From Defluviitaleaceae bacterium (lineage in GTDB: Bacteria > Bacillota > Clostridia > Lachnospirales > WQUN01): a stretch of DNA of 64,000 bases. Location: NCBI GenBank assembly GCA_009779755.1, contig WRDO01000006.1, positions 1 through 64,000 on the forward strand. The letters are read 5' to 3'. Position numbers and translations under genes: made by a program. This document shows, piece after piece, positions 4,701 to 19,776 of the stretch; positions within the stretch are counted from its first letter, which is position 1, and each line of letters begins with the position of its first letter. Under the pieces are notes generated by a model that was not told the DNA's origin, searched no databases, and was given only the letters and a program-made list of their open reading frames with translations.

Positions 4701-4951
4701 CCGCCGCCGCCGCCGATAATGCCGCCCGAACCGCCGCCGGGTTCCCATACCCAAAAATCCCAGCCGCCCGAATGGCGCGGCGCGCGTTCGTACACATGTA
4801 TGGTGAGCGTCAAGCCGTCATGCGATACGGACAGGGGTTCGTCGGAGGGTTTGCCGTCGCCGCGCAACACCCAATAAACCCCGAACGCACCCAACGCAAC
4901 GACCAATAACATAACCGCGATAATTAACTTCGTCGAAAGTTTATCAAGCAT
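1748..4951 (-). CDS. pulA: Type I pullulanase (GH13), membrane-anchored or secreted
   Basis: Hydrolyses alpha-1,6 branches of pullulan, amylopectin and limit dextrins. The 1067-residue product starts with a hydrophobic anchor at about residues 8-29. A CBM41-like N-terminal domain follows (IHVYERAP...GWDFWVWEPG at about 48-75), then a CBM48-like segment and the GH13 barrel. The type I signature MNWGYDPQNYNVPEG is present. The catalytic residues are visible: nucleophile Asp in GFRFDLM (about residue 685), acid/base Glu in YGEPW (about 713) and the third Asp in SKHDD (about 819). The gene begins 6 bases after the LacI-type regulator and is followed at 17 bases by the CBM26 protein, so all three probably share the promoter at 6022-6050. 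The hydrophobic N-terminus and the secreted CBM partner imply action outside the cell. Confidence 0.95.
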   Translation of the reverse strand: MLDKLSTKLIIAVMLLVVALGAFGVYWVLRGDGKPSDEPLSVSHDGLTLTIHVYERAPRHSGGWDFWVWEPGGGSGGIIGGGGGRYSSQVSLLSPFTEEYYPFRTLTLELEPGTDRIGFLMRLPPCPVGGWEVWGRQTGDVIAYLDTDGEGNPVNTTVYHIQGTTMVMPTFPYMGGLAVTAIADWRDYIKITMLEPEGEVDPAAFILRDITGTDWANGTDIPITNVSEGSSRIAGGASFPVFHVHTAGELDPQRHYSLAYGDGQLKTGGVNVLMRGILDQFRYTGWLGHRWYADRSEFKLWAPTAVNVQIALYRDLNQIPGGGHYEEEGGMRVLSSFIREPHHLFDMTRNASGVWSVSVPGDWADGNTQWWYMYRVTHPQGNVTFAIDPYATAVSANEGLGAIINDTQRGEPLRGGDNLTWLQRGYRYVNGEREYVERTAPKLRVNPVTDHPYQVDHVIYELHVRDFSIHPSSGINPAYRGTFMAFTERGTTARTHRASGTCNAQTPFEISLCSNEACWSVPTSAATGLDHLIELGVTTVHLLPIYDQRHVNELQPDRQVYNTRHAMNWGYDPQNYNVPEGAYATDPTVPYKRIRELKAAVNAMHNVGIRVVMDVVYNHTASVSDGPFQASVPYYFHRTWCTGMIAGGGSGVGNELADERPMVRQYIVDSLLYWQREFGIDGFRFDLMWLHDIHTMRAAVEALRAVDPTVIIYGEPWAANPNGSPLNFPELFRDSQGNLREAFDHPPLPSSANNITGNGFAFFNDNTRNLLRGGNRDASSGFVNGSTFGGITGDVWRSIRANTPNVGVASESVNYISKHDDMILFDNIAWSLGAARGGIDSPGSSNWSTPQFFSQYNTLNNETFRHDPHHMIDRDDPLQANVARSMTFGTGVILTSQGIPFIHAADSFLRSKRGHENTFNSDDFFNAIRWDQKAAFIDVHEYFVGLIALRNARPAFRMDNRADINDAYHPLLPNPPASVAPAGSDLILAYRLGEHAGGDEWRNIFVAYNASSEPRVVNFLWHVPLHVVVDDRTAGTETLWVIQSRHAVTLPPFSLLVAYDEDLSNKK

Positions 4952-4957
4952 GATGGC

Positions 4958-5965
4958 TCACTCCTGCAAAGGACAAAAGCTACCGCCCTTTTCAAGGGTG
5001 GTATGTAGGATAATATGCGTATGGGGGCAGTCCGCATTAATCAGGTTTATTAATGTCGAAACGCTTCGTTCGGCCATTTCTTCGAAGGGCTGCACAAAAG
5101 TGGTAAGCGTAGGGTTTGTATATTCCCCGTTTTCAATACCATCGAAACCGATAATAGAAATATCTTCCGGTATACGTAAACCTTTTTCGTGTACGGCTTT
5201 CATCGCGCCGATGGCCAACACATCTGACAGACATAAGAAACAAGTGTGCTTTCCTTGTTCCAATAATTTCCTCGCGGCCTTGTAACCCGTCATAAACAGG
5301 TAAGCCTTATCATAGTCCAGCGCCACCGACGTCGGGGTTATCCCGTATTCACCGAATACCTTGGCCATACCTTTCTCACGCAGGTGGTATTGCCCGATTA
5401 CGGCGATATCCCGATGGCCGTTGCGGCAGATATAATCCGCTATCTTCGCGCCCTCGGTTTCATCATCAATTGTCACGCTGGAAAACCACGAGCGGTCCTC
5501 CGTTTTTAATACCGTAGTGGACGCCATGACGATGGGGACGCCGATCATTTTTAATGACGGGTAATTTTCCTCAAAGTATCCGCCCAACAAAATAATGCCC
5601 TTGGGGCGTTTTTCCTTATAAATGCTGATGGCCGTATCCGCCATGCTGATGTTCGCATCCAATTCGCAGCTATGCAGTATTACGTCGTAATCCTTACCGT
5701 TCAGGTTTTCCAAAATAAGCGAAATAATCCTTGAAAAAAACGGGTTCGTGATGCCGTGTACAAGCAGCACAATAGATTGGGTGGAAATGCTGGACAGGCT
5801 CCGCGCGCTGTTATTGGGTATGTAGGTGCAGTCCTCGATGGCTTGCCGCACGCGGGCGCGCGTATCCTCACTGACACCCTTGTGCCCGTTGAGCACCCGC
5901 GAAACGGTGCTTTTGCTTACGCCGGCGAGGCGTGCTATGTCATATATGTTCGCGTCTTTCGGCAT
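4958..5965 (-). CDS. LacI/GalR-family transcriptional repressor
   Basis: 335 residues. A typical LacI helix-turn-helix is at about residues 5-30 (IYDIARLAGVSKSTVSRVLN) and a periplasmic-binding-protein-like effector domain fills the rest. The frame is open further upstream, but the ATG at 5965 is preferred because the helix-turn-helix starts right after it and an AAAAGGGG ribosome site precedes it. It is the first gene of the operon with pullulanase and the CBM26 protein. Overlapping palindromes immediately upstream (5995-6020) are the expected LacI-type operators, so autoregulation is likely. The natural effector is probably a maltodextrin or related sugar, inferred from the neighbours only. 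Confidence 0.92.
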   Translation of the reverse strand: MPKDANIYDIARLAGVSKSTVSRVLNGHKGVSEDTRARVRQAIEDCTYIPNNSARSLSSISTQSIVLLVHGITNPFFSRIISLILENLNGKDYDVILHSCELDANISMADTAISIYKEKRPKGIILLGGYFEENYPSLKMIGVPIVMASTTVLKTEDRSWFSSVTIDDETEGAKIADYICRNGHRDIAVIGQYHLREKGMAKVFGEYGITPTSVALDYDKAYLFMTGYKAARKLLEQGKHTCFLCLSDVLAIGAMKAVHEKGLRIPEDISIIGFDGIENGEYTNPTLTTFVQPFEEMAERSVSTLINLINADCPHTHIILHTTLEKGGSFCPLQE

Positions 5966-5994
5966 GGGTACCCCTTTTATTTCATAAATTAAAA

Positions 5995-6020
5995 CGGGAA
6001 CGTTCCCGGGAACGCTCCCG
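5995..6020. promoter_or_regulatory. Tandem LacI-type operators
   Basis: CGGGAACGTTCCCG at 5995-6008 is a perfect 14-bp palindrome with a central CG, the usual symmetry of LacI-family sites. A second copy with one mismatch, CGGGAACGCTCCCG, lies at 6007-6020 and overlaps it by two bases. They sit directly downstream of the -10 box of the minus-strand promoter, across the expected start point, which is the classical repression position. Confidence 0.75.
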
Positions 6021-6021
6021 A

Positions 6022-6050
6022 ATCGTAGCATACGACACGGAATATGTCAA
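6022..6050 (-). promoter_or_regulatory. Sigma-A promoter of the lacI-pulA-CBM26 operon
   Basis: On the minus strand TTGACA (6045-6050) is followed after exactly 17 bases by TACGAT (6022-6027). The palindromic operators begin one base downstream of the -10 box. Confidence 0.8.
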
Positions 6051-6091
6051 TTGTGTTACAAAACCAAAAACATGACAGGCGATAACACAAT
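6050..6091. promoter_or_regulatory. Inverted repeat in the divergent lacI / ABC-importer intergenic region
   Basis: ATTGTGTTA (6050-6058) and TAACACAAT (6083-6091) form a perfect 9-bp inverted repeat separated by 24 bases. It abuts the -35 box of the lacI promoter and lies about 75 bases upstream of the ABC ATPase gene. It could be an operator for an unseen regulator; the long loop makes a terminator unlikely. A second weak hairpin (TAATCC 6125-6130 with GGATTA 6143-6148) lies just before the importer ribosome site. Confidence 0.4.
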
Positions 6092-6166
6092 CGGACGTAC
6101 CGCATATATATGGATTGGTAGCGATAATCCGCTCTGACGCCCGGATTACGCTTGGGGGGAATCGAC

Positions 6167-6910
6167 ATGCGTGAGATGCTGCGTTTTAGTGACGTTTCGC
6201 TGACATATCAAGCCGAAAACGGTGAGGTTGAAGCGCTCAGGGATATTGATTTTTCGGTGTACGAAGGGGAACTGGTATCCGTCATCGGGCCGTCGGGCTG
6301 CGGTAAGACGACGCTCCTTTCCTTGATTGCGGGTTTGGAGCCGCCTACCGACGGGACGGTTACGATCAACGGCACGCCGGGTTATATGCTTCAAAAGGAT
6401 AACCTGTTGGATTGGCGTACGATACGCGGCAACGTTTTATTGGGCTTGGAGATATGCGGCAAGAAAAATACCGCGAATACGGATTACGCCGACAGGCTGC
6501 TTGGGACATACGGCTTATGGGAATTCCGTGATAAGCACCCTTCGCAGCTTTCCGGGGGAATGCGCCAGCGCGCCGCATTAATCCGTACGCTTGCCGTAAA
6601 GCCGGAGCTTTTGCTCTTGGACGAAGCGTTTTCCGCGCTCGATTATCAAGCGCGCCTCGTCGTGGCGGATGATGTGTTTAATATCTTAAAACGGGAAAAG
6701 AAAACGGCGGTCATCGTCACGCACGACATCGCCGAGGGCATCAGCATGGCCGACCGTTTGATTGTGTTAACGAAACGCCCCGGAAAAGTGCAGACCAATA
6801 TATTATTGGAATTCGACCCCCCCGACGCAACCCCGCTGAAACGCCGTGAAGACCCCGCTTTCCGCGGGTACTTTAAGACTATATGGGAGGGGTTGGATAT
6901 CCATGTGTAA
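6167..6910 (+). CDS. ABC transporter ATP-binding protein, SsuB/TauB/ThiZ type
   Basis: 247 residues with Walker A GPSGCGKTT, signature LSGGMRQR, Walker B LLLLDEAFSALD and a switch His in VIVTHD. This is the energising subunit of a nitrate/sulfonate/taurine-type importer. The frame also permits an upstream TTG at 6152, but that overlaps the GGGGGA ribosome site. The ATG at 6167 has correct spacing and starts at the family N-terminus. Its end overlaps the permease start by 8 bases (ATGTGTAA), so the two are translationally coupled. The substrate is not readable from the sequence. Confidence 0.9.
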   Translation: MREMLRFSDVSLTYQAENGEVEALRDIDFSVYEGELVSVIGPSGCGKTTLLSLIAGLEPPTDGTVTINGTPGYMLQKDNLLDWRTIRGNVLLGLEICGKKNTANTDYADRLLGTYGLWEFRDKHPSQLSGGMRQRAALIRTLAVKPELLLLDEAFSALDYQARLVVADDVFNILKREKKTAVIVTHDIAEGISMADRLIVLTKRPGKVQTNILLEFDPPDATPLKRREDPAFRGYFKTIWEGLDIHV

Positions 6911-7736: not shown

Positions 7737-8735
7737 ATGAAGAAGGTTTTATTATTAGCCGTGATGGCGGCCGTGGGCCTTATCGTGTTTACGGCTTGCG
7801 GACGCCGCAGCGACGGCGACCTTACGACGGTGAGGGTAAGCGAGGTTACGCGCTCGGTATTCTACGCGCCGCAATACGCGGCGATCGCACTCGGTTTCTT
7901 TGAAGATGAAGGGATCGCTGTTGACCTGTTTACTTCGGACGGTGCGGACAGAGTAATGACGGCTTTGCTTACGGGTGCGGCGGATATCGGATTTTCCGGC
8001 CCGGAGGCGACGATCTACGTCTTTAACGAAGGACGCGCCGACCATGCCGTGGTATTCGCGCAAGTGACCAAGCGTGACGGTTCGTTCCTGATCGCGCGGG
8101 AACCCATGCCCGACTTTACGTGGAGGGATATCATCGGTGCGCATGTACTTCCCGGCAGAAGAGGCGGAATGCCCTTTATGGCACTCGAATACGTGGTGCG
8201 CCAACATGGGATCATGCCCGGTACGGACGTCGATTTTGACACATCAATACAATTCGCCGCGATGGTGGGCGCGTTTATGAGCGGAACCGCCGATTTCGTG
8301 ACCGCATTCGAACCCGTCGCCTCTACCGTCGAACTCGAGGGGCGCGGCTTCGTGGTCGCTTCCGTGGGTGAAGCAAGCGGCGAAATTCCCTACACGGCAT
8401 ATTACGCCCTCGGCAGCTATATTTCAGCCAACCCCGAAACCATCCAAGGCTTTACCAGCGCCATCGCCCGTGCGCAAAAGTGGGTAACGGATAATCACGC
8501 GTCGCTGGTGGCAAGCACGATCGCGGGATTTTTCCCCGACGCCGACCCGATTATATTGGAAAACGCCATCGCCCGTTACAAGGCGATCGACGCGTATTCC
8601 GCCAATCCCGTCATGACGCGCGATTCCTTCGACCGTTTACAACGCGTGATGGAATCCGCCGGGGAACTGACGCAGCTTGCGCCGTTCGATCGGCTGGTGG
8701 ATAACCGCTTCGCGGAAATCGCGGCGGGTAAATAA
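7737..8735 (+). CDS. NMT1/THI5-like substrate-binding lipoprotein
   Basis: 332 residues. The signal peptide ends in a lipobox (VFTAC, Cys at about residue 21), so the mature protein should be lipid-anchored outside the membrane. The body has the NMT1/THI5-like pattern SVFYAPQYAAIALGFFEDEG followed by VMTALLTGAADIGFSGPEA. This is typical of binding proteins for sulfonates, nitrate or thiamin-pyrimidine precursors. I see no thiamin riboswitch upstream, so thiamin-precursor uptake is not specially supported. The last 125 bases overlap the oppositely oriented gene ending at 8611. Confidence 0.88.
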   Translation: MKKVLLLAVMAAVGLIVFTACGRRSDGDLTTVRVSEVTRSVFYAPQYAAIALGFFEDEGIAVDLFTSDGADRVMTALLTGAADIGFSGPEATIYVFNEGRADHAVVFAQVTKRDGSFLIAREPMPDFTWRDIIGAHVLPGRRGGMPFMALEYVVRQHGIMPGTDVDFDTSIQFAAMVGAFMSGTADFVTAFEPVASTVELEGRGFVVASVGEASGEIPYTAYYALGSYISANPETIQGFTSAIARAQKWVTDNHASLVASTIAGFFPDADPIILENAIARYKAIDAYSANPVMTRDSFDRLQRVMESAGELTQLAPFDRLVDNRFAEIAAGK

Positions 8736-9684
8736 GGACACCGCAAGCCATTGCGAAGAAAACCCCGATTTGCCGTATAAGGAGCAAACGAAGCTCCACG
8801 TCACGTTGCGCGGGGGGTACGCCGAGGAATTCCTTGACGCCATCCCCCGCTTGTTGGAAAAGGGATGACCAAAAGGCGAAATCACCCCAATGCGTGGGGA
8901 CGATCCATGCGGGCAGGATGTCCAATATAAGCGGGAGCAAAACGGCAAAAATAATTAATGCCGTTAGGAGGGTAAGCGTACCGTATCGCGGAAACCATTT
9001 TTTCAGATTCTTTATAGAGACAAACAACGCATGGATAACGATAAATAAAACAGGCAGCAACGGCGTAAAACCAACGAAGGCAACCAAACCGCCGGTCAAT
9101 ATATGGTCGGGCTTTCCCAAACCGGAAGTGACCGCAAAGCGTTCCGCGTTTACGCGCGTGGGTTCGGTTGCTCCGCCGAAAAGCTCAACGTTGTGCCAAT
9201 CCCGTGACATATCCTCAATATGATAGGGAATAAGCGCAAGTTCCGCGCCGCCTTTGAACACACCGCGGATGATCCGATCCTCACCGTCAACTGTCAAAAT
9301 CATACCCACAACATCGATACTTCCCCACAACTTATGCGCCAGGGCTTCGGAAACAGCCGCGCCCGCACCGTCGATGGGGCTTGGCGCGCCGCCCGTCAAA
9401 TAAACGGCGGGCCAAACGCAATCGGCATTACCGGAATACGTGATGCCGATTACGTCATGTTTCCTATACGGGCCCGCGGCCCGAACAACGGTTTCATTCC
9501 AAAAGGTCGGCCAAGGGGTTTCCGCATTATCGATCGCGTATTGCCGCGCGCGGTAAGCGGTTTGGCCGCTTATCGACTGCGAATAGCGCAAGGATGTCGG
9601 CGGAAAGTGCTTGATTTCGCGGGCTTGGAACATACCGATCAGCCCGAATATGATCAGGATGCACCAAGGGACGATACGCTTCAT
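8611..9684 (-). CDS. MacB/FtsX-like membrane protein without ATPase domain
   Basis: 357 residues: an N-terminal membrane segment (residues 4-21), an extracytoplasmic domain resembling the MacB periplasmic core (DVIGITYSGNADCVW, then a GAGAAVSEALAHKLWGS element), and membrane segments near 210-230, 245-270 and 308-325. There is no nucleotide-binding domain. It follows the HlyD/MacA-like adaptor by two bases, the usual pairing for MacA-MacB-type systems, so the two probably interact. The final 40 or so residues are basic, low in hydrophobicity and read through the 3' end of the binding-protein gene on the other strand. That tail may result from loss of an earlier stop. Confidence 0.6.
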   Translation of the reverse strand: MKRIVPWCILIIFGLIGMFQAREIKHFPPTSLRYSQSISGQTAYRARQYAIDNAETPWPTFWNETVVRAAGPYRKHDVIGITYSGNADCVWPAVYLTGGAPSPIDGAGAAVSEALAHKLWGSIDVVGMILTVDGEDRIIRGVFKGGAELALIPYHIEDMSRDWHNVELFGGATEPTRVNAERFAVTSGLGKPDHILTGGLVAFVGFTPLLPVLFIVIHALFVSIKNLKKWFPRYGTLTLLTALIIFAVLLPLILDILPAWIVPTHWGDFAFWSSLFQQAGDGVKEFLGVPPAQRDVELRLLLIRQIGVFFAMACGVLIYPPRFPRSGYPPADRTAQAASVPRRIPSRVVNGRRNRAS

Positions 9685-9686
9685 CG

Positions 9687-11885
9687 TCAGTTCACCCGTA
9701 CGCGGTCGCCGACGCTGACCGCCCGATTGCTTGATGATATGACTTGGCTGCCGCGGTCGATCGGGCCCGTGACGGACACCGTATGGTCGTCGGAAACGAT
9801 GACGCTGACGTTTATCCGCTCCACCACGTTTTGCAAGCCGAGGACGGTATTACGCCTTCCCACGGCATATACGAAATACCCGGTGTTATCGGTACGGAGA
9901 GCCGAAATCGGTACGCTCATATCGTAATTACCTCGGCTCAGGACAATCTGCGCGTCGATCCGCTGCCCCACGCCCCAATCATTACCGGGGAGGGCGATCG
10001 TGACCGTGACCCGATCGTTTTCGTCGGGCGCGGAAATGGCTGATACGACCCCTGTCACGGTGGGGGTGAAAAACAAGTTGCCGCCCCCCGTCGTCACTTC
10101 GCTTTGGCTCCCGACGGAAAGCCTTTGCGCATCCCTTTGGTTAACCTGCATTTGCGCCTCAAACCCACCTTCCGTGTCCCTGAGGGTGGCAAAGGGGGCT
10201 TTTGCCGTTACGGAGCCTTTTTCCGTTATCGTTGCAACCACGCCGTTTTTTTCCGCGAATAAAATACCCTCCGCCAATATCAACGCATCCAATGATTCGA
10301 CGATGGCTTCCTTATCGGCGATGTCCAACGCCAGCGTTACCGCAGTAATATTGCTTTGCACCGTTGATTCGTTGCGCTGGTGTACGCTACGCTGATGGGT
10401 GAACTCCGCCGAAGCGAGGGAAGCGGCGGCATCCTCCACACGCCGCGCCGCCGTTCGGCGGTTATCGTTCGCCCGGGTGACCGCCGTTTGCAACGCGGCT
10501 TGCGCGCGTTCCACTTCCGTGTCCAAGGATTGGGACGTATCCTCCAGCCGTCGGGTCGCCGCCAACAGGTTGTCACGGGCGCGGGATTCGGCTGCATCCA
10601 ATGCTTTTTGCGCCTGTTCTATCAGGTTTTGCCGGTTTTGCATTAAGTTATGTTCCGCGTCCTCCAGTCTTCGCGCTGCGTTTTGCTTGTTTTCCGCCGC
10701 ACGGGCTTGCGCGGTTTCCAACGCCGCTTCCGCACGTTCGATTTCGCTTTGACGTCCTTCACGGGAGTTTTGCTCTGCTTGCGCCAGGCTTGCCTGCGCG
10801 TCCTCCAGCTTGCGCATCGCGATAAAGAGGCTTTCCTGCATCGCAGCTTTCGCCGAATCATAAGCGGCTTGCCTTTGGTTTATTTCCGCTATGGCCGATG
10901 CGATTACAGAGGGGTCCGGGGAAATTTGCATCAATAGGCTTTGGTATATGATCAACGCGTTATGCAAATGCCCGAGGGCTGTTTCCACGGCTGCCTCCCC
11001 TTGTATTCGCGTGCTTTCGAAATCCTCGCGCGTGCGTTGGTAATTGCGCCGAGCGTTGTCGATTGCGTTGCGGTCGGCGGTCGGTGTGTTGAGCCTTAAC
11101 GCTTGCCTCAACGCTTCCTGCGCTTCATTTACGCCATGCTCGCCCTGCGCTACCGCGGCTTCGTAATCCTCCACCGCGCGGGTATGGCTGCGCAGGGCGG
11201 ATTGTACAGCGTTGTCATCCCATTCTTCGTAAGGTGCGGATAACAATTGATTTAAGACCTCTTGGGCATCGGCTATTTCGTTCCTGCCTTGTTCGACCGC
11301 CGCTATATAATCCTCCAACGCGCGTGCGTGGTTGCGCAGGGCCGTTTGGTTATCCCCGCTTTCGTTTAATAACCGTTCCAACGCTCCCCTCGCGGCATCG
11401 ATGTCTTCTTCGCCTTCATGGACCGCGGAGGTATAATCCTCCCTTGCCCGCGCCAACGTACGCCGCGCGTTTTCCAAAGCGCTTGCGTCAAGGGGTTCTA
11501 TGTGTTCGTGCCGTTCAAGGTCAAAGCGCATTTGGTCAAGCCGCGCATTTTCGCGGATACGCATTACGGACAATTCATCCACGCAGAACGCCGCGATGGC
11601 GTCGCCGCTCCGTACCTCTTGCCCTACTCCGATAAACACTTCGTCAACCGTCAACCCTTCAAGAACGGTAACATCAATCATGTTCGCGGGCATTACCGTG
11701 GCGACGCCGTTGATCGCTTCGATGATTTCACTCCTGGCGGGTGCGGATACCGTAACCTTTGCTAAGGTCGCGCCGCTCGTACCCCGCGCCACCAGCGTGA
11801 AGATAAGCATAAACGCCAGGAACCTGAATATATTGCCCGCGGCGCGGCGTTGCTTGGGATCGGCGTTTTTCAACAGATTTTTCAT
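9687..11885 (-). CDS. HlyD/MacA-like adaptor protein with an exceptionally long coiled coil
   Basis: 732 residues: one N-terminal membrane segment (about 18-37), the first half of a lipoyl/barrel-sandwich domain (about 45-105), about 440 residues of Ala/Glu/Arg-rich coiled coil (105-545), the second half of the lipoyl domain (GVVATITEKGSV), and C-terminal beta-barrel domains. The coiled coil contains two families of internal repeats. One has units with a YxxAVxxGE core near residues 151, 193, 241 and 289. The other has (A)xRRLEDA units near 358, 405, 445 and 481. In Gram-positives such adaptors span the wall between an inner-membrane transporter and the exterior. It lies 6 bases after the permease gene and 2 before the MacB-like gene. 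Confidence 0.8.
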   Translation of the reverse strand: MKNLLKNADPKQRRAAGNIFRFLAFMLIFTLVARGTSGATLAKVTVSAPARSEIIEAINGVATVMPANMIDVTVLEGLTVDEVFIGVGQEVRSGDAIAAFCVDELSVMRIRENARLDQMRFDLERHEHIEPLDASALENARRTLARAREDYTSAVHEGEEDIDAARGALERLLNESGDNQTALRNHARALEDYIAAVEQGRNEIADAQEVLNQLLSAPYEEWDDNAVQSALRSHTRAVEDYEAAVAQGEHGVNEAQEALRQALRLNTPTADRNAIDNARRNYQRTREDFESTRIQGEAAVETALGHLHNALIIYQSLLMQISPDPSVIASAIAEINQRQAAYDSAKAAMQESLFIAMRKLEDAQASLAQAEQNSREGRQSEIERAEAALETAQARAAENKQNAARRLEDAEHNLMQNRQNLIEQAQKALDAAESRARDNLLAATRRLEDTSQSLDTEVERAQAALQTAVTRANDNRRTAARRVEDAAASLASAEFTHQRSVHQRNESTVQSNITAVTLALDIADKEAIVESLDALILAEGILFAEKNGVVATITEKGSVTAKAPFATLRDTEGGFEAQMQVNQRDAQRLSVGSQSEVTTGGGNLFFTPTVTGVVSAISAPDENDRVTVTIALPGNDWGVGQRIDAQIVLSRGNYDMSVPISALRTDNTGYFVYAVGRRNTVLGLQNVVERINVSVIVSDDHTVSVTGPIDRGSQVISSSNRAVSVGDRVRVN

Positions 11886-11891
11886 ATACAG

Positions 11892-12740
11892 CTACTCCTT
11901 GATTCCGGCGGATTGGATACCCAACTCCAGGTATTTTTGGCCGAAGAAAAAAAACAGCGCGGCCGGTATCAGCATTAACAGCGAGGCTGCCATGGCAACC
12001 CCCAATTCCTCCGACACGATTTGCGGCAGGAACAACGAAATCGGCCATGACGCGGGGTCGTTCAAAAAGGTCATGGGTTGCTCGATCGCGCCCCAAGTCT
12101 CCAAAAAGCCCAGCACCAAAGCCGCGAGGATACCGGGTACGCCCAACGGAAGCCCGACGTACACGAAGGTACGCAATCGCCCCGCCCCGTCGATGTTGGC
12201 CGCTTCCATGAGCGCCCGCGGCACCGCGTCGAAGGCCCTCATCATGATAAAGACCGGGAACGCCGAAAACGCGAAGGGCAGGATCACGGCCCATATGTTA
12301 CCCATCAGACCCAAGCGGTCGATCACCAAATAATTGGGTACCATCGTCACTTGGAAAGGCATGAGCATGAGCGAAATATAGACCGTAGCTGCGACCTTGC
12401 GTCCGCGGAAACGGAAGCGGCTCAACGCCCAAGCCGCGGGTGCGCCCAAAATTAACTGGCCGACAACCGAGGGTATGACGATCTTGAACGTATTCCAAAA
12501 CATGGTGAAGAACTGCGGCATGTCCAAGAGCAGCGAGACCATGGGTTGCAACGTTGGCCACGACGGAAGGATCGGCCAAACAGATTGGCCCTCCGCGGAG
12601 GTGAGCGCGGGGCCGATCGTGATGCGCAATTCATCCAACGGCATCAACGAACCCATCACCATAAACCACAACGGCCATACCACCAAAAAGGCCAGCGCGA
12701 TTAAGGGAACACATTTTATACAAAACCTAATCCTTTTCAT
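11892..12740 (-). CDS. Carbohydrate-type ABC permease, MalG/UgpE family
   Basis: 282 residues, six predicted membrane segments. The EAA loop reads ALMEAANIDGAGRLRTFVYVGLPL (around residue 185), which is diagnostic for the MalG-type inner-membrane subunit. The start overlaps the end of the MalF-type permease by 14 bases, indicating translational coupling. No dedicated ATPase is encoded in the operon, so a shared MsmK/UgpC-like ATPase elsewhere would be needed if this is a working importer. Confidence 0.88.
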   Translation of the reverse strand: MKRIRFCIKCVPLIALAFLVVWPLWFMVMGSLMPLDELRITIGPALTSAEGQSVWPILPSWPTLQPMVSLLLDMPQFFTMFWNTFKIVIPSVVGQLILGAPAAWALSRFRFRGRKVAATVYISLMLMPFQVTMVPNYLVIDRLGLMGNIWAVILPFAFSAFPVFIMMRAFDAVPRALMEAANIDGAGRLRTFVYVGLPLGVPGILAALVLGFLETWGAIEQPMTFLNDPASWPISLFLPQIVSEELGVAMAASLLMLIPAALFFFFGQKYLELGIQSAGIKE

Positions 12741-13626
12741 CCAGGAATCTCCGCATAACCAAGATAATCAAAAGCAACGCGACCCCCAGCATCGTAGCCG
12801 CCGCGCTCAATCGGCTGATGTCCAGGTTCATGAACCAATTATTGAACAGGTGCTGCAGCAGGTACATGGAGTCATTCGGATACGCCCCCGCTACCAAATA
12901 CGCCTCCCGAAAGACACGGAAGCTGTTAAGCAGCGAAAGGATCGATACAACCCCGACCGTAGGCAGCAGGCACGGCAGGGTCACGTACCGAAAGGTCTGC
13001 AACGCGTTTGCGCCGTCCGCGTGGGCGGCTTCGTACAACGTTTCGGATATGCCGTCCAAACCCGCCAGCCACAGGATCATGTTGTAACCGTTGTTCTTCC
13101 ACAGGTAGGTAAACACCAGTACCCAAAACGCCGCACCCGAATCCATGAACGCTACGGGCTCCAACCCTACACGCAGCAGGACCGTATTGGCGAGCCCGCC
13201 TTCGTTAAACAACGCCTGCCACAGCAACACGATGCTGGCCACGGGTACGGCCATCGGCAGCAAAAACGCGGTCTTGAAGAATTTACCCATGGGTTTGATC
13301 GAACGGAGCAAAAGCGCCGTACCCAAACTCACAACCATAAGGAGCGGGATGCAGACGGCCGCGAACTTTAAGGTATTCGCAGCCGCCAGCCGAAAGGCTT
13401 GGTTGTTCAAAACGGATACATAACTTTCCAAACCTATAAAATTCACGCCGCGTACGTCGTAGAAGCCCCTGCGTACCGTATCGATCAACGGCAGCAGGAA
13501 AAAAACCGTTATCCCACCAAAACTCGGCGCAAGGAACGCGACGGCCGCAGGGCCGTCCCCCTTACGAACGTTCCGCCAGATAGTTGCGAATGCTTTGCTC
13601 AATTTCCCGCACAGCCCCTTCCACAT
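12727..13626 (-). CDS. Carbohydrate-type ABC permease, MalF/UgpA family
   Basis: 299 residues with six predicted membrane segments and a MalF-type EAA loop (LYEAAHADGANALQTFRYVTLP). The frame is open up to 13734, but upstream codons lie inside the binding-protein gene. The ATG at 13626 follows an AAGGCAGG ribosome-site candidate and begins a short hydrophilic leader before the first membrane segment. With that start the gene overlaps the end of the binding-protein gene by 65 bases. This start is less certain than the identity. Confidence 0.85.
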   Translation of the reverse strand: MWKGLCGKLSKAFATIWRNVRKGDGPAAVAFLAPSFGGITVFFLLPLIDTVRRGFYDVRGVNFIGLESYVSVLNNQAFRLAAANTLKFAAVCIPLLMVVSLGTALLLRSIKPMGKFFKTAFLLPMAVPVASIVLLWQALFNEGGLANTVLLRVGLEPVAFMDSGAAFWVLVFTYLWKNNGYNMILWLAGLDGISETLYEAAHADGANALQTFRYVTLPCLLPTVGVVSILSLLNSFRVFREAYLVAGAYPNDSMYLLQHLFNNWFMNLDISRLSAAATMLGVALLLIILVMRRFLDEKD

Positions 13627-15829
13627 CCAACCTGCCTTGACATAACCGTTCCACCGTTTCCCAAACCATATTACGCAGGGTCGTTTCGATGTTCGTCGGC
13701 GTATTGAGCCGGGCGATAAACGCATCCAAATCAACCCCGAACAGCGGCATGTTACGCTCCCGCATCAATTCATTGATCAGATCGATTTGCGCGGCGATGC
13801 CCGAACGCGTAATCGGTAAGCCCAAGCCGTGGTTAATCTGCTGTACTTGGACCGATAACAGGGTTTGGATAAACGCGGCCGCGAAATCGGGGTTGGCCGT
13901 ATCGGCGGAAACGCCCGCGAGGGTGGAAGGTATCCAAACACCCGGTGCCAGTCCCGGGAAGGGTTCGATAAACGCTTCCCCGTCCCCGCGGTCCATCATC
14001 GTATGCAGCAACGAAAGGTTCGTAACGGCGAACGCGCCCATGTTCGTTGATTGGAGCATATAAGTCACCAGCGAAGCGGGTACCGTATTCACCCTCCCGC
14101 CGCCGCCAAAGGATAGGAAGGACGATCCGGCCATCATTTCGTTTGTATCTGTCAAGCCGTACATATCGCTGATCGCCTTGGTTGTTTCCAGGAAAGCACG
14201 CAGCATATCGGAATCCAAACGATTGCCGTCAACGATCGCGGGGGCATTGGCTTGCCACATGATGTCGAACAACTCCCGTAAATCGCCGAAGTGCAGTTGG
14301 GCGCGTTCTTCCTTGGGTACGCCACCGAGCATCCCCTCCCCGCTTATCAGCGGAGCGGCGGGGTTGCCGTTTACCACGCTGTCCGCCAATGCGGCGAGCG
14401 TGCGTACATTGCTTAATTCGCTCCTGTCCCCCAGCAAAGCGGGGATCATGAATTGCGTGGGGATCACATGTAATCGGCCGTTGTCCGTATACGACGCCAG
14501 CAGGTTTTGATAGATGCCGCTTACGTCCATCCTACCCGTCAAATCGAGCAGCATACCCCTGTTCGCGTAGCTTTCGACGGGTGTACCGTCCAATATAAGT
14601 ATGTCAGGCCCCCTGCCGCTCAATAAACGGGTATTTAACGTACGGATCGCATCGGACACGGATACGGCGTTGTCGCCGGATAACGCGATTTCATAGGTGA
14701 TGCAAGCATCCGGATGTAAACGCCATATTTCCGTTATCGCGGCGCGTACCGTTTCGTTATCCTCCAATGACCAAATGCTTATGGTCTTTTGTGGGTTAAC
14801 ATGTGCGTCATGGTCCCACGTGTATCGGAACAATCGATTGTACTGACCATACATCGATACGTTTACGATGATACAGCCGTCGGCGATTTCCTGCATGGCC
14901 GCGGCCGTACCCGAAGCGGAGCCGAACGTAAACGCCGTGCCGTCAAGAAAGGTATCGATATGCCCGTCCGATGTATGGCGCAGGATGCTGTGCCCTTGCA
15001 AGGTAAAAACATCCCCGTTATTGTTCGCGCCCAGCGTACCCGGCGTTTCCAAATCGGATATCAGGCTCCCCGTGGCGATATCGTGGATCGCCGTCGTCTG
15101 CCCGAACATGCCGCCTAAGGAAATATTATTACCTCCGGCACTTATGCCGCCGCCCGCGGTACTCCCCGACATCCGAACCTCCGACGTTCGGACCTCCGTT
15201 CGGCTTCCCGTCGCTCCCGAGCCTTGCGAACCTTGCCCATGCGTTATGTTATTCATGCCCGTGGGGTTTTCCCGCATAAACCTTGCGAGCCAATCCACGC
15301 CGTAATTAAGCAAGACCCGTTGGTCGTCCAACAACTGTATCAACGATACGTTGTGGCTGTCCCCTTCGGCAATCGCATCGTCGATTTCCGCAACCGGGAA
15401 ATGCTCCGTCGTACCGTCCGGGGATAATTTTGTCATGCCGTAACCCTGTAAATACAGCAGCAACCTTCCGTCGGGAAGCAACGCCGCGGATTGAACGTTT
15501 GTGAAACGGTCGTCGTTTGCACCCGGACCGGGCGATTGCGTCCATGTCACGCCTTTATCGCCGCTGTCGTACCGGGTACGCAGCCCTTCGTCGAACGCAA
15601 CCAATGAACCATCCTGCGCTACCATGCTGATAATCCGCCCTTCGATGGGAGGGGTTATATCCACCTCGGCATACCGCCCCGACCGTTCTCCTCCTGCTTC
15701 AACCCTTCTTGATTCCCCTCTACTCGTTTCCTCGTTGGCACCTTCACCGCCTTCACCGTTCCTGCCGCAAGCGGTGGCAAGCAATAACAACCCCGCCGCG
15801 CAAACAAAACAAACGAACCACTTCTTCAT
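13562..15829 (-). CDS. Lipoprotein fusing a beta-propeller-like region to a family 1 solute-binding domain
   Basis: 755 residues from the ATG at 15829, which follows GGAGGT by 5 bases; the frame upstream of it is non-coding. The lipobox is LLLLATAC (Cys21). Residues of about 60-340 resemble beta-propeller blades (ISMVAQDGSLVAFDEG, VQSAALLPDGRLLLYLQG, ...NNNGDVFTLQGHSILRH). From about residue 348 the protein becomes a family 1 extracellular solute-binding protein (ISIWSLEDNETVRAAI, then LLSGRGPDILILDG and LLDLTGRMDVSG). A low-complexity Ser/Gly/Thr linker interrupts the propeller region near residue 210. It precedes two sugar-type permeases and is divergent from a two-component system, so it may act as importer subunit, sensor or both. 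Confidence 0.8.
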   Translation of the reverse strand: MKKWFVCFVCAAGLLLLATACGRNGEGGEGANEETSRGESRRVEAGGERSGRYAEVDITPPIEGRIISMVAQDGSLVAFDEGLRTRYDSGDKGVTWTQSPGPGANDDRFTNVQSAALLPDGRLLLYLQGYGMTKLSPDGTTEHFPVAEIDDAIAEGDSHNVSLIQLLDDQRVLLNYGVDWLARFMRENPTGMNNITHGQGSQGSGATGSRTEVRTSEVRMSGSTAGGGISAGGNNISLGGMFGQTTAIHDIATGSLISDLETPGTLGANNNGDVFTLQGHSILRHTSDGHIDTFLDGTAFTFGSASGTAAAMQEIADGCIIVNVSMYGQYNRLFRYTWDHDAHVNPQKTISIWSLEDNETVRAAITEIWRLHPDACITYEIALSGDNAVSVSDAIRTLNTRLLSGRGPDILILDGTPVESYANRGMLLDLTGRMDVSGIYQNLLASYTDNGRLHVIPTQFMIPALLGDRSELSNVRTLAALADSVVNGNPAAPLISGEGMLGGVPKEERAQLHFGDLRELFDIMWQANAPAIVDGNRLDSDMLRAFLETTKAISDMYGLTDTNEMMAGSSFLSFGGGGRVNTVPASLVTYMLQSTNMGAFAVTNLSLLHTMMDRGDGEAFIEPFPGLAPGVWIPSTLAGVSADTANPDFAAAFIQTLLSVQVQQINHGLGLPITRSGIAAQIDLINELMRERNMPLFGVDLDAFIARLNTPTNIETTLRNMVWETVERLCQGRLDVEGAVREIEQSIRNYLAERS

Positions 15830-15861
15830 ACATGACCTCCGTTGATTTGATTTTCCCTCGG

Positions 15862-15867
15862 AGTATA
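15862..15867 (-). promoter_or_regulatory. -10 box candidate of the binding-protein/adaptor operon
   Basis: TATACT on the minus strand lies about 33 bases upstream of the start codon. No good -35 box is present at 17 bases. The first copy of the 11-bp repeat overlaps the -35 region instead, as at promoters that depend on an OmpR/PhoB-type activator. Confidence 0.45.
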
Positions 15868-15877
15868 CAAACGCAAC

Positions 15878-15919
15878 TGGGACAAAATCAGCCTTCATTT
15901 GGAACAAAATTGGAACAAC
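15878..15919. promoter_or_regulatory. 11-bp direct repeats, candidate binding site of the adjacent OmpR-family regulator
   Basis: TGGGACAAAAT (15878-15888), TGGAACAAAAT (15900-15910) and TGGAACAAC (15911-15919) are direct repeats whose starts are 22 and 11 bases apart, so they are in helical phase. PhoB/OmpR-type regulators bind head-to-tail 11-bp repeats. The site lies between the response-regulator gene and the transport operon. Confidence 0.6.
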
Positions 15920-15943
15920 CGCGAAACGCGGCGGCAAGGATGC

Positions 15944-15949
15944 TATAAT
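15944..15949 (+). promoter_or_regulatory. -10 box of the two-component operon
   Basis: TATAAT lies 22 bases before the response-regulator start codon. No -35 match sits at the right distance; the direct repeats upstream could substitute by activator binding. Confidence 0.5.
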
Positions 15950-15970
15950 CCGTACGGGAGGTCGCAGACA

Positions 15971-16663
15971 ATGAATCGATTGATCTATATCGCCGAAGAC
16001 GAAAAAAACATCCGCCGTCTCATCCAATCCTATTTGGAAAAAGAAGGCTATACCGTAACGGCCTTTGAAAACGGGGACCAATTGTATGAAGCATTCTTGC
16101 AAAAGAGTTGTGACCTGCTGATCCTCGACATCATGATGCCGGGTAATAATGGGTTGATTATATGTACAAAATTGAGGGCGATTTCGAACGTCCCTATCAT
16201 CATGCTGACGGCCCGTGATACGGATGAGGATTATATCTCCGGCATAACCCTGGGGAGCGACGATTACTTCACCAAGCCCTTCAGCCCCGCGAAGCTGCTC
16301 GTGCGTGTCAAGGCTATGTTCCGCAGGATCGAGATGGATACGCAAACCAAGGAAGAAACGGTCGCCTTCGCGGATATCACCCTGCATTTGGATCAATTTT
16401 CCGCTTATTGCAAGGGAAATCGCTTGGGGCTTACGAACACGGAATTCAACCTATTGGCTTATCTGTTGACGAACAAGGAAAAGGCCGTCTCAAGAAACGA
16501 ATTGCTCAACAGGATTTGGGGGTTCGGGAATATCGTGGAAACCCGCGCCACGGACGCTGCCGTCAAGCGCCTGCGCAGGAAACTGTCGGATATGGACAGC
16601 GAAGTTTTCATCGAAACGGTGTGGGGGTATGGGTTTAGGATACGGTCCGGATCGGAGGCATAA
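15971..16663 (+). CDS. OmpR/PhoB-family response regulator
   Basis: 230 residues. A receiver domain has an acidic pocket (AEDEKN), phospho-acceptor Asp in LLILDIMMPG (about residue 52), Thr in MLTARD and Lys in TKPF. A winged-helix DNA-binding domain begins near residue 130 (FNLLAYLLTNKEKAVSRNELLNRIW). The ATG at 15971 follows GGGAGG; the longer frame upstream is the promoter region. It is followed after one base by its cognate histidine kinase. Divergent orientation to the binding-protein/adaptor operon suggests that operon as target. Confidence 0.93.
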   Translation: MNRLIYIAEDEKNIRRLIQSYLEKEGYTVTAFENGDQLYEAFLQKSCDLLILDIMMPGNNGLIICTKLRAISNVPIIMLTARDTDEDYISGITLGSDDYFTKPFSPAKLLVRVKAMFRRIEMDTQTKEETVAFADITLHLDQFSAYCKGNRLGLTNTEFNLLAYLLTNKEKAVSRNELLNRIWGFGNIVETRATDAAVKRLRRKLSDMDSEVFIETVWGYGFRIRSGSEA

Positions 16664-16664
16664 A

Positions 16665-18233
16665 ATGAAGAGCTTTACGCGGAAGTTGATCCTATATTGC
16701 ACCGGGGTTATCTTTATCGGTTTTTTTGTGGTTTATATCCTGTTTAACGCGATGGTGGGCTCTTATATCCGCGCGGAAGCCGAACAGGAACTCAACCTGG
16801 GGATAATAGACGCGGAGAATATATCCCGGCGCCTGTACCTTTCCATGACCGAAGTTGAATATGACGGGGAATCCGAAAATGACGATATTTCGGTTCATAA
16901 TGAAATCACGCAGGGTATAACCATCGCGTCCGGTATTAGGACAAGTGAGATCAACCCCATAAACGATATACCGATTTCAAGCGTTATACGGGTATCACCT
17001 TACGATGGTTTCCACATTTCGAGCCTTTCCGTCAGCCTGGGGCACGCATATACCTTTCTTCCCATGCGTCAATCCATTATTAATACGGGTACGATCATGA
17101 TAGACGCCCATATGGGTGAAATTATCATGCCCTCGCTCGAATTCCTGCCCGACAACCAAATCGCGCAAATAGAATTTCTTTCCATGTACTACTTGGATAA
17201 CCGCAGCCTTTTTGCAAACGGGGGGATGGTCATCGCAACCGACGCGAACAGCACCCACTACATGCGCGCAATCAACCAAACCATGGGCGATGAATCCATT
17301 TCCATATTGCTTTATACGGATATCAGCTCCGCCATCGCCTTCATGAACAGCATGAACAACCGATTGATCCTGCTTTTGGTTTTATCCGGGCTCGCGAGCC
17401 TGACAATCGCCGCATTAATGTCCATACGCTTTAAGAAGGCGATCAACCGCCTTTGCAAACATGCGGAAACCATCGGTCACGGCGATTTCGACAAAACGGC
17501 GGGTGCATTCCATGATTCGGAATTCACGAGACTATCGAACAGTATGAATGAAATGTCCAACATGCTCAAAACCTACGAAGGTAACCAAAAGCAGTTCTTC
17601 CAAAACGCCTCCCACGAATTGCGTACCCCGCTTATGTCCATCCAAGGTTATGCGGAAGGTATCATCGACGGCATCTTCGATAAAGACGAAGCGGCGGAGA
17701 TCATCCTGTCCGAAGGGCAAAAAATGACAGACATGGTGGGTGAGCTCCTTTTCCTGTCCAGGATGGACAGTCACCCCCAAAAATCCTTCACGGTTTCACC
17801 CATCAATATCCGCGGCCTGTTATCCGAATGCGCCGAACAAATGAAACCCATCGCCGCGAACGTGAATAAAACCATAACGCTAAGCGAAACCCCACCCGAA
17901 GCGGCAATTACGGGCGACAGGGAAAAATTGACATGCGCAATTATTAACGTATTGTCCAACGCGGTACGCCATGCGAAAAGCGATATAACGCTTAATTGCG
18001 TTATAAATGAAAATACTCTCAAGATCGAGGTATGTGATGACGGAGACGGGATAGACGCCGCTGACTTGCCCCGCCTGTTCGAACGCTTTTACAAAGGCAG
18101 GGACGGGAACGCCGGATTGGGGCTTGCCATCAGCAAGGAGATCATCAAGAACCATGGTGGGGACATTACCGCCGGCAACAAGCCGAAAGGCGGGGCCGTG
18201 TTTGTGGTTGAATTGCCGCTTATTCCTTCTTAA
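16665..18233 (+). CDS. Membrane sensor histidine kinase
   Basis: 522 residues: membrane segment at about 12-33, an extracytoplasmic domain of about 200 residues, second membrane segment at about 233-255, HAMP (about 256-300), HisKA with phospho-His in NASHELRTPL (about 316), and HATPase_c with N box NVLSNAVRHA, G1 box DDGDGID, F box and GNAGLGLAISK. The start is one base after the response-regulator stop and preceded by GGAGG, so the pair is coupled. The large external domain could sense the propeller lipoprotein or its ligand. The 3' end overlaps the convergent hybrid kinase by 14 bases. Confidence 0.93.
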   Translation: MKSFTRKLILYCTGVIFIGFFVVYILFNAMVGSYIRAEAEQELNLGIIDAENISRRLYLSMTEVEYDGESENDDISVHNEITQGITIASGIRTSEINPINDIPISSVIRVSPYDGFHISSLSVSLGHAYTFLPMRQSIINTGTIMIDAHMGEIIMPSLEFLPDNQIAQIEFLSMYYLDNRSLFANGGMVIATDANSTHYMRAINQTMGDESISILLYTDISSAIAFMNSMNNRLILLLVLSGLASLTIAALMSIRFKKAINRLCKHAETIGHGDFDKTAGAFHDSEFTRLSNSMNEMSNMLKTYEGNQKQFFQNASHELRTPLMSIQGYAEGIIDGIFDKDEAAEIILSEGQKMTDMVGELLFLSRMDSHPQKSFTVSPINIRGLLSECAEQMKPIAANVNKTITLSETPPEAAITGDREKLTCAIINVLSNAVRHAKSDITLNCVINENTLKIEVCDDGDGIDAADLPRLFERFYKGRDGNAGLGLAISKEIIKNHGGDITAGNKPKGGAVFVVELPLIPS

Positions 18234-19776
18234 GGTATTTTCTCAATATTTCAAACACCTTATCCATATCAAGCGGTTTGCCCAGGTGGTCGTCCATACC
18301 CGCTTCAAGGCATTTTTCAATATCCGCTTTAAATACGTTTGCGGTCATCGCGATTATCGGTAATTTACCCTGCAGGCCCACGGGCATCAGGCGTATCCGA
18401 CGGGACGCTTCCAACCCGTCCATGACCGGCATTTGAACGTCCATAAAGACGATGTCATATTTTTCAGGGTGCGCCCCAATCATGGCGAGTGCTTCCTCGC
18501 CGTTTTTGGCGCAGTCGATCGCAAGCCCCGTGTCATCAAGCAAAGTGATAAGGATTTCGCGGTTAATCTCAATATCTTCGGCAAGCAACATTCTTTTGCC
18601 CGCAAATTCATTGATTCCGGCACCGCTTGCGGGGTCCGTTTCCGTTAAGATACGGGTATTTTCATCATTGACGTCGGGTACCGGCATTGTGCGTGAATCT
18701 TTATCGCTGCGCCGTACCTTTACGGTAAAGATAAACCGTGCGCCTTTGCCGAGCTCCGATTCGGTACGGATATCGCCGCCCATCAGCTCGATGATACGCT
18801 TGGAAATGGCAAGGCCCAATCCCGTACCGCCGTATCTGCGGCTGATTTCGCTTTCGGCTTGCTCGTACGCGGAGAATAACCGTTCCTTTTGCTCGTCGGA
18901 TATTCCGATACCGCTGTCGGTTACCTCGATGCACAGCTCGCAATCCTTTTCGGATTCTGACACGACAAACGCGTCAAAGCGGATTTCACCGTCTTCGGGG
19001 GTAAACTTTACCGCGTTGGACAGCAAATTCGTGATAACCTGCGCCAAGCGTTGGTCGTCCCCTATCAGGAAGCGCGGGATATTTTCATTGACATTCACCG
19101 TAAGCCGCTGCTTCTTTTCTTCCAATTGGAAACCCACGACCGTAAGCACCTTTTGCAACATTTGTTCGAAGTTATATTCAACGGATGACAGTTCTAATTT
19201 GTTGGCTTCAATTTTCGCCATGTCAAGCACGTCATTGATAACGCCCAATAAATGGGAGGACGCTTCACCTATCTTGTAAAGGGCTTGGTTTTTTTGTTCA
19301 ACGCTTTTGGCCTTTTTCCCTATAGCCGTCATGCCGAAAATCGCGTTGATCGGCGTCCGTATTTCATGGCTCATTCTGGAAAGGAATTCACTTTTGATTT
19401 GGCTTATTTCTTCGGCATTATCCTTTTTCCTTACCAGCTCGTCTTGGGCTTCTTTTAATTGTACTATGGTCCGGCGATCCCTTGCTTTCAGCTTACCCAC
19501 CATGATAACAATCGAGGATACCGCCAGCAGGATGGTCATCAGCTTTTCCGTCGCCGCGATATCGGACGTCGCGATGAAAAAAAAGTACGCGGAGTATAAT
19601 ACGGCGGTACTGCCGCTTAATGTTCCGCTGATATAACCGTCCAAATATGTAAACAGTACGACCGGGATAATCAGTATCATCATGGGATTCGGTATCTTAA
19701 AAAAGTAAACAATCGCAATCGCCAAAACCGTGACGGGGATACTCGAAAAGCGATAAATAATTTTACTCCATTTCAC
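18220..19776 (-). CDS. Hybrid sensor histidine kinase/response regulator
   Basis: 518 residues. A GTG start at 19776 is chosen because AAAGGATGG lies 7 bases upstream; the ATG at 19809 has no ribosome site. Order: a short membrane region of three or four segments (about 7-90), coiled coil, HisKA with LSRMSHEIRTPINA (His about 137), HATPase_c (N box NLLSNAVKFT, G boxes, GTGLGLAISK), linker, and a C-terminal receiver (MLLAEDIEINREI, phospho-acceptor Asp in IVFMDVQMPVMDG about 443, Lys in GKPLD). There is no output domain, so phosphate must go to another protein. No partner lies next to it. Confidence 0.92.
   Translation of the reverse strand: MKWSKIIYRFSSIPVTVLAIAIVYFFKIPNPMMILIIPVVLFTYLDGYISGTLSGSTAVLYSAYFFFIATSDIAATEKLMTILLAVSSIVIMVGKLKARDRRTIVQLKEAQDELVRKKDNAEEISQIKSEFLSRMSHEIRTPINAIFGMTAIGKKAKSVEQKNQALYKIGEASSHLLGVINDVLDMAKIEANKLELSSVEYNFEQMLQKVLTVVGFQLEEKKQRLTVNVNENIPRFLIGDDQRLAQVITNLLSNAVKFTPEDGEIRFDAFVVSESEKDCELCIEVTDSGIGISDEQKERLFSAYEQAESEISRRYGGTGLGLAISKRIIELMGGDIRTESELGKGARFIFTVKVRRSDKDSRTMPVPDVNDENTRILTETDPASGAGINEFAGKRMLLAEDIEINREILITLLDDTGLAIDCAKNGEEALAMIGAHPEKYDIVFMDVQMPVMDGLEASRRIRLMPVGLQGKLPIIAMTANVFKADIEKCLEAGMDDHLGKPLDMDKVFEILRKYLKKE

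Follow-up and report, generated by a model that had tools for sequence, protein, structure and literature searches.

An operon joining MalFG-type permeases to a MacA/HlyD-type adaptor and a MacB periplasmic-core-domain protein in a Defluviitaleaceae bacterium

What is the function of an operon that places importer-type permeases beside parts known from efflux pumps? The question is raised by five genes on the minus strand of a 64,000-nucleotide stretch of DNA from a Defluviitaleaceae bacterium (hereafter the window; contig WRDO01000006.1). They encode, in order, a solute-binding protein (SBP) lipoprotein, a MalF-type permease (PERM1), a MalG-type permease (PERM2), a MacA/HlyD-type adaptor and a MacB-like protein (Table 1). 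A sequence-only reading of the window had described these genes, their order and their very short gaps, and all are present. PERM1 overlaps the SBP gene by 41 nt and PERM2 overlaps PERM1 by 14 nt; gaps of 6 nt and 2 nt separate PERM2 from the adaptor gene and the adaptor gene from the MacB-like gene, respectively. A two-component system is encoded divergently.

The host genome comprises 3.1 Mb in 91 contigs (completeness 97.7%). Its nearest named relatives are metagenome-assembled genomes of Defluviitaleaceae, a family placed in Bacillota, Lachnospirales, and isolate names suggest the termite gut as the habitat. No Omp85 gene was found in the host genome, while the control search had matches in seven of 14 known genomes, so that we take the host to be a monoderm. 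Ten proteins encoded outside the conserved core were scanned and have no common function, one being without any match. The flanking proteins scanned include a subtilase, an ABC exporter, FtsX-type proteins, a P-type ATPase, an M28 peptidase and a tRNA synthetase. Elsewhere in the window, positions 33933-38699 encode a 1588-residue flagellin-like protein in which PNPPxGxPGHV-type units are repeated over a long central region.

Table 1. Positions of the operon, its likely control elements and the related fusion genes
Sequence	Feature	Position	Strand
Window	SBP lipoprotein: signal/lipobox, propeller-like N half (~50-340), SBP domain (~345-753)	13562..15829	-
Window	PERM1, MalF-type permease: EAA-type loop, TTG start within SBP gene	12727..13602	-
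Window	PERM2, MalG-type permease: EAA-type loop	11892..12740	-
Window	MacA/HlyD-type adaptor: N-terminal TM, lipoyl halves, ~420-residue coiled-coil region, C-terminal barrel/membrane-proximal part	9687..11885	-
Window	MacB/YknZ periplasmic-core-domain (PCD) protein: 4 TM, no FtsX coupling helix	8611..9684	-
Window	Direct repeat, 11-bp spacing, likely response-regulator operator	15899..15916	+
Window	OmpR/PhoB-type response regulator	15971..16663	+
Window	Sensor kinase: HisKA/HATPase_c, HAMP, ~200-residue extracytoplasmic region (from sequence)	16665..18233	+
L026	BlaR1/M56::SBP fusion	7897-11760	
L027	BlaR1/M56::SBP fusion	2988-5522	
L028	BlaR1/M56::SBP fusion	4221-6683	

Permeases, adaptor and MacB-like protein

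Both window permeases match PF00528 above its cut-off, and the MalF-type profile matches AlgM1, MalF and SugA. The EAA-type loop carries DGA in all 44 rows for each permease.

The adaptor of the window, taken alone, scores 36 bits against TIGR01730 (cut-off 94.9) and has no Pfam match. A profile built from 44 adaptors matches structures of membrane fusion proteins (6vej, 2.1e-17; MexJ, 1.1e-15; a MacA-type chain, 1.6e-12), and 30 of the 44 members match HlyD_3. The predicted coiled-coil region varies from 123 to 437 residues among the 44 (420 in the window), which would give a reach of 9 to 33 nm if it forms one straight hairpin; the figure of 31 nm multiplies the residue count by 0.149 nm and assumes one hairpin. 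At the nucleotide level, the tandem repeats of the gene amount to only three short rows. Adaptors at two related loci, L026 and L027, are only 142 and 168 residues long. They match the N- and C-terminal ends of the profile (weakly for L027) and are without hairpin and lipoyl parts, so that some of these systems can do without a tube. MacA is reported to touch MacB through its membrane-proximal part, among others (PMC5985334). As the short adaptors keep this part, we think that the adaptor serves above all to make contact at the membrane and that reach through the wall is an elaboration.

The MacB-like protein of the window has, by itself, no credible Pfam match. The family profile matches YknZ (8.6e-5), and MacB_PCD (PF12704) is detected at E<=0.01 in 21 of 45 members and in seven of seven more distant ones, the window protein not being among them. 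The modelled structure (pLDDT 90.1, pTM 0.83) has an ectodomain similar to that of YknZ, with a Z-score of 14.1 and an rmsd of 3.2 Å over 160 residues (Foldseek E 3.5e-9); the rmsd rises to ~15 Å for Foldseek matches that take in the transmembrane part. The FtsX domain (PF02687) was found in none of the 45 members and none of the seven distant ones. As a control, six ordinary MacB-type proteins picked up by the same search (L093-L095, L097-L099) all contain both FtsX and MacB_PCD. Two further proteins scanned alongside, from L096 and L092, are also without FtsX and were counted with the composite family because their operons hold MalFG and an adaptor.

In MacB, the major coupling helix is reported to sit between TM2 and TM3 (PMC5985334). 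The corresponding stretch in the MacB-like proteins is mostly 14 alignment residues, and in the model helix runs to helix with one residue between. A crude search for a coupling-like motif gave matches in two of 45 members, and W-[SGA]-[DN]-F-x-F-W is present in all 45 between the predicted TM3 and TM4. Without the FtsX domain, the MacB-like protein does not qualify as an energised exporter of the MacB kind. The exporter-type half that had been read into the operon thus retains its periplasmic domain but not the transporter domain, and a working MacB exporter half is not supported.

The match to relatives of the MacB-like protein stops at about residue 318, whereas the window ORF is ~39 residues longer. 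Over its last 125 nt (8611-8735), this ORF lies antisense to a neighbouring NMT1-like SBP gene; the conserved part is 8728-9684, and the remainder looks like read-through. In G004, ~5 kb with a hybrid-kinase-like and a lipoprotein-like gene lie between the MacB-like and NMT1-like SBP genes. Downstream of three other composite operons (L072, 11133-17341; L073, 11044-20323; L081, 11417-20797) are two or three tandem proteins of ~1020-1090 residues, with FtsX matches in the two scanned.

Conservation of the neighbourhood

A scan with the MacB-like alignment against one genome each for 84,980 species gave 48 loci, of which L060 and L084 end at contig boundaries. As these loci were entered through the MacB-PCD protein, they are silent on how often the other genes occur without it. 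Where the DNA is in view, the adaptor gene adjoins the MacB-like gene at all 46 loci, MalF and MalG lie within 5 kb of it at all 43, and an SBP is encoded at 38 of 41, several in tandem at some. A regulator and kinase pair is found at 29 of 38, the other nine having no full pair in view. The alignments used 36 of 38 listed SBPs (L051 and L064 left out), 43 of 44 rows in A4 (L083 left out), 44 of 46 in A7 (L077 and L083 left out) and all 43 listed rows in A5 and A6.

The five genes recur in genomes titled Defluviitaleaceae, Oscillospiraceae, Lachnospiraceae and others. Among the carriers, by record title, are Blautia parvula, [Clostridium] asparagiforme, Gemmiger formicilis, Niameybacter massiliensis and Acetanaerobacterium elongatum. 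Gene order is altered at L064, L070 and L109, yet the linkage is kept. Among 61 genomes (the host and its relatives), 12 have the MacB-like gene; it was not found in one of the same genus (G002). A variant operon in G040 (L111, 11524-14590) has an ABC-like protein of 302 residues and a protein of 731 residues encoded upstream of the permeases.

An independent entry was made through MalG in 398 genomes of the phylum. At E<=1e-45, there were 27 matches in 17 genomes. An adaptor gene is adjacent to 13 of the 14 matches at 183 bits or above and to none of the 13 at 157-174 bits; for G436 the adjacency was read from a longer locus only, and for the G413 MalG (208 bits) there is no adaptor within the flank seen. 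The adaptor-linked kind thus occurs in eight of the 398 genomes (G000, G040, G200, G210, G261, G373, G404 and G436). In a tree of 65 MalG proteins, one branch (support 100/99) splits 49 adaptor-linked from 16 ordinary sequences. The host genome itself has at least 18 MalFG pairs, five adaptor-linked and 13 ordinary. All five strong MalG loci have adaptor matches, three of them short or weak, and no adaptor was found at the 12 ordinary MalG loci with the next gene in view (it is out of view for one of the 13, the second pair of L103).

The sequence-only reading had proposed a search for five-gene synteny with the two-component pair, and had allowed that a neighbourhood conserved in no relative would point to chance adjacency. 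The five genes recur together across several families, with the pair at most loci, and chance adjacency is ruled out by the synteny counts and by the MalG-based sample. At the level of genome evidence, this recurring linkage supports the composite envelope machine that had been suggested.

Energy supply, ligand and control

No ATPase gene lies within the five-gene operon, as had been noted, and no ATPase of the MacB/LolD type is encoded in it or within the conserved core of related operons. The absence is no oddity, however, and damage is likewise rejected: the host genome has one orphan OB_MalK protein and many MalFG pairs, and no MalK match above 30 bits was found at the ordinary MalFG loci examined there. 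MalK is co-encoded at eight related loci (L064, L070, L110 and L141-L145); the OB_MalK and TOBE_2 domains are present in the three of these proteins that were scanned for them (L064, L092, which is a piece of L110, and L141). One ATPase serving several importers is established for MsmX/MsmK (PMC7658222), and the ATPase of C. thermocellum transporter B is reported to be likewise encoded elsewhere (PMC9601137).

The SBP of the window scores 21.1 bits against SBP_bac_1, below the cut-off of 26, and the lipobox pattern is present in 34 of 37 SBP rows. The profile finds CbpC of C. thermocellum as the nearest solved SBP (E 8.6e-30), and the model (pLDDT 80.7) superposes on CbpC over residues 345-753 with a Z-score of 28.5 and an rmsd of 4.1 Å for 365 residues. 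The N-terminal half matches WD40/propeller chains by profile and is strand-rich in the model; its propeller fold is assigned from these profile matches and the strand pattern, the VIA-align list barely testing this half. Few columns are conserved in the SBP alignment, and no substrate could be read from its residues.

CbpC itself poses a problem. It is reported to have bound none of the carbohydrates tested, an extra loop being seen to block its pocket (PMC9601137). Binding of G3-G5 had been found in an earlier study, as cited in PMC3492117, and cbpC is described as up-regulated on xylose (PMC7471329). A search of the 398 genomes with a CbpC fragment gave one match at E<=1e-15, which lies within an adaptor operon (L144), and C. 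thermocellum transporter C may be of the composite kind. Given the reported blocked pocket of CbpC and its failure to bind the tested carbohydrates, sugar import may be wrong for the composite. As a guess, the composite probably handles a compound that derives from the envelope or from glycans and is beyond the reach of a bare SBP.

Between the regulator and SBP genes lies TTGGAACA-N3-TTGGAAC, for which 0.14 matches at two or fewer mismatches are expected by chance in the window. Exact 8-base direct repeats with a spacing of 11 occur upstream of 12 of 33 operons, compared with 0-2 of 33 for other spacings from 9 to 25 and a mean of 0.15 (largest 2 in 300 runs) in shuffled controls. A TCTCTAAA-type box is common to several other loci. 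Direct repeats at 11 bp are the pattern expected of OmpR-family regulators, and these are likely the operator of the response regulator. The control by the adjacent two-component system that had been surmised is thus backed, at the genome level, by the frequent pair and by a likely operator between the two units. The kinase has a HAMP domain at 267-314 and ~200 extracytoplasmic residues. Beside the composite operon of L064, positions 13973-18500 encode an ABC ATPase, a membrane protein of ~660 residues, a kinase and a regulator, a set that resembles BceAB-BceRS by layout only.

Paralogues in the host genome are controlled differently. Three loci (L026, L027 and L028) join the same MalFG clade to a BlaR1/M56::SBP fusion with a BlaI gene beside it; genes for MalF/MalG-type permeases and a short adaptor come after the fusion. 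The five adaptor-linked MalFG loci of this genome show two kinds of control. The SBP is thus associated with signalling by two unrelated routes, linkage to a two-component system and fusion to BlaR1.

Mechanism, alternatives and known systems

Read directly from sequence are the parts and their conserved linkage, the clade of MalG proteins, the MalK partner encoded in related operons and the absence of FtsX. These observations point to what we regard as the probable explanation, held with some reserve: a MalK-driven type I ABC system with the adaptor and an ATPase-uncoupled MacB-PCD protein as fixed partners. For substrate, direction and physical assembly, we infer the following. A shared MalK would drive MalFG, and the SBP would hand its ligand to MalFG for import. 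The MacB-PCD protein may serve as a passive membrane platform for an adaptor ring, as MacB does for MacA, so that the adaptor/MacB-PCD assembly would sit on the outer face of the ABC system. The membrane-proximal part of the adaptor would touch the importer or the SBP, with the coiled coil reaching into or across the wall, and the two-component system would sense a related signal and switch the operon through the 11-bp repeats. A bolder version appears unlikely to us: an intake duct, in which a hexameric MacA-like adaptor on the ATPase-free platform leads the ligand to the SBP and MalFG. We are just as doubtful that, in such a duct, the coiled-coil arms pass through the Gram-positive wall, for up to ~30 nm if each is one straight hairpin. 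If true, it would be a tripartite machine running inward.

The composite could also be a signalling complex first and a transporter second, reporting ligand or envelope state to the kinase or to BlaR1, much as BceAB reports to BceS. This idea is compatible with the MalK-driven system, but we doubt that it is the main account. Its best argument is the BlaR1::SBP paralogues: the SBP is fused to BlaR1/M56 at three paralogous loci with BlaI beside all three, and two unrelated sensor types thus sit with the same MalFG clade. Also in keeping with it are the likely operator, the presence of a two-component pair near 29 of 38 loci and a CbpC-like SBP whose pocket is reported to be blocked. Against it, the kinase has an extracytoplasmic region of its own, nine of 38 loci show no complete pair in the DNA in view, and the MalK co-encoded at eight loci points to ATP-driven work.

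Export is improbable on the present evidence. The adaptor and MacB-PCD protein would then be the working half, with MalFG acting outward or a distant ATPase driving the MacB-PCD protein. Adaptors and MacB PCDs are indeed best known from efflux (PMC5985334), and FtsX-type proteins lie beside some loci (L072 and L073); yet FtsX is absent from the MacB-like proteins (0/45 and 0/7), the TM2-TM3 stretch is short where MacB carries its major coupling helix, SBPs accompany 38 of 41 loci, and the co-encoded ATPase is of the MalK type. We give even less credence to two independent machines that merely share a transcript. Each half is of a recognisable, known kind, but the linkage has outlasted deep divergence as well as changes of gene order and regulator, and adaptor-linked loci have a MalG clade of their own. 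The MalK-driven system with fixed partners remains our preferred reading.

Efflux adaptors have so far been understood as parts of outward pumps, and this family would give both adaptors and MacB ectodomains a second use; it may also explain SBPs with a disputed ligand, such as CbpC. It is unusual, as judged from the genes, for an importer core to be joined both to an adaptor of the efflux type and to a MacB ectodomain that has no motor contact. In many gut Clostridia, this combination suggests an envelope machine for uptake or sensing of a kind so far undescribed. Since the composite occurs in cultured gut bacteria, these proposals can be tested. No description of such an importer/adaptor/MacB-PCD system was found in searches of a library of open-licence PMC papers.

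The composite shares with CUT1 importers (MalFGK2-SBP with a shared MalK/MsmX) an SBP lipoprotein, two BPD_transp_1 permeases and the EAA-type loop; the ATPase of CUT1 importers is often encoded elsewhere (PMC7658222), as may be so here. In contrast to these, it has its own adaptor and MacB-PCD protein, a propeller-like SBP half and a separate permease clade. An adaptor and a MacB periplasmic domain in one operon are features of the type VII ABC systems YknWXYZ, Spr0693-0694-0695 and MacAB, and such operons are also reported in Gram-positives (PMC5768738, PMC5985334). Unlike these systems, the composite is without FtsX domain, coupling helix and MacB-type ATPase, and is partnered with MalFG and an SBP. 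Spr0693 is described as having a helical barrel 56 Å high, its hairpin partly untraced, in an assembly of 15.4 nm from membrane to tip (PMC5768738). The coiled-coil region of up to 437 residues in the composite adaptors contrasts with this 56 Å barrel, bearing in mind its partly untraced hairpin.

BceAB-BceRS combines an intramembrane-sensing kinase with a 10-TM FtsX permease. The composite resembles it in having a two-component system beside an ABC transporter that carries extracytoplasmic domains (compare Table 3 of PMC5985334) and differs in its type I importer core, in a kinase with a large extracytoplasmic region and in being without BceB, no FtsX permease of that kind being encoded in the five-gene operon. 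On the side of the binding protein, the closest likeness is to CbpC and transporter C of C. thermocellum, the source of the nearest solved SBP.
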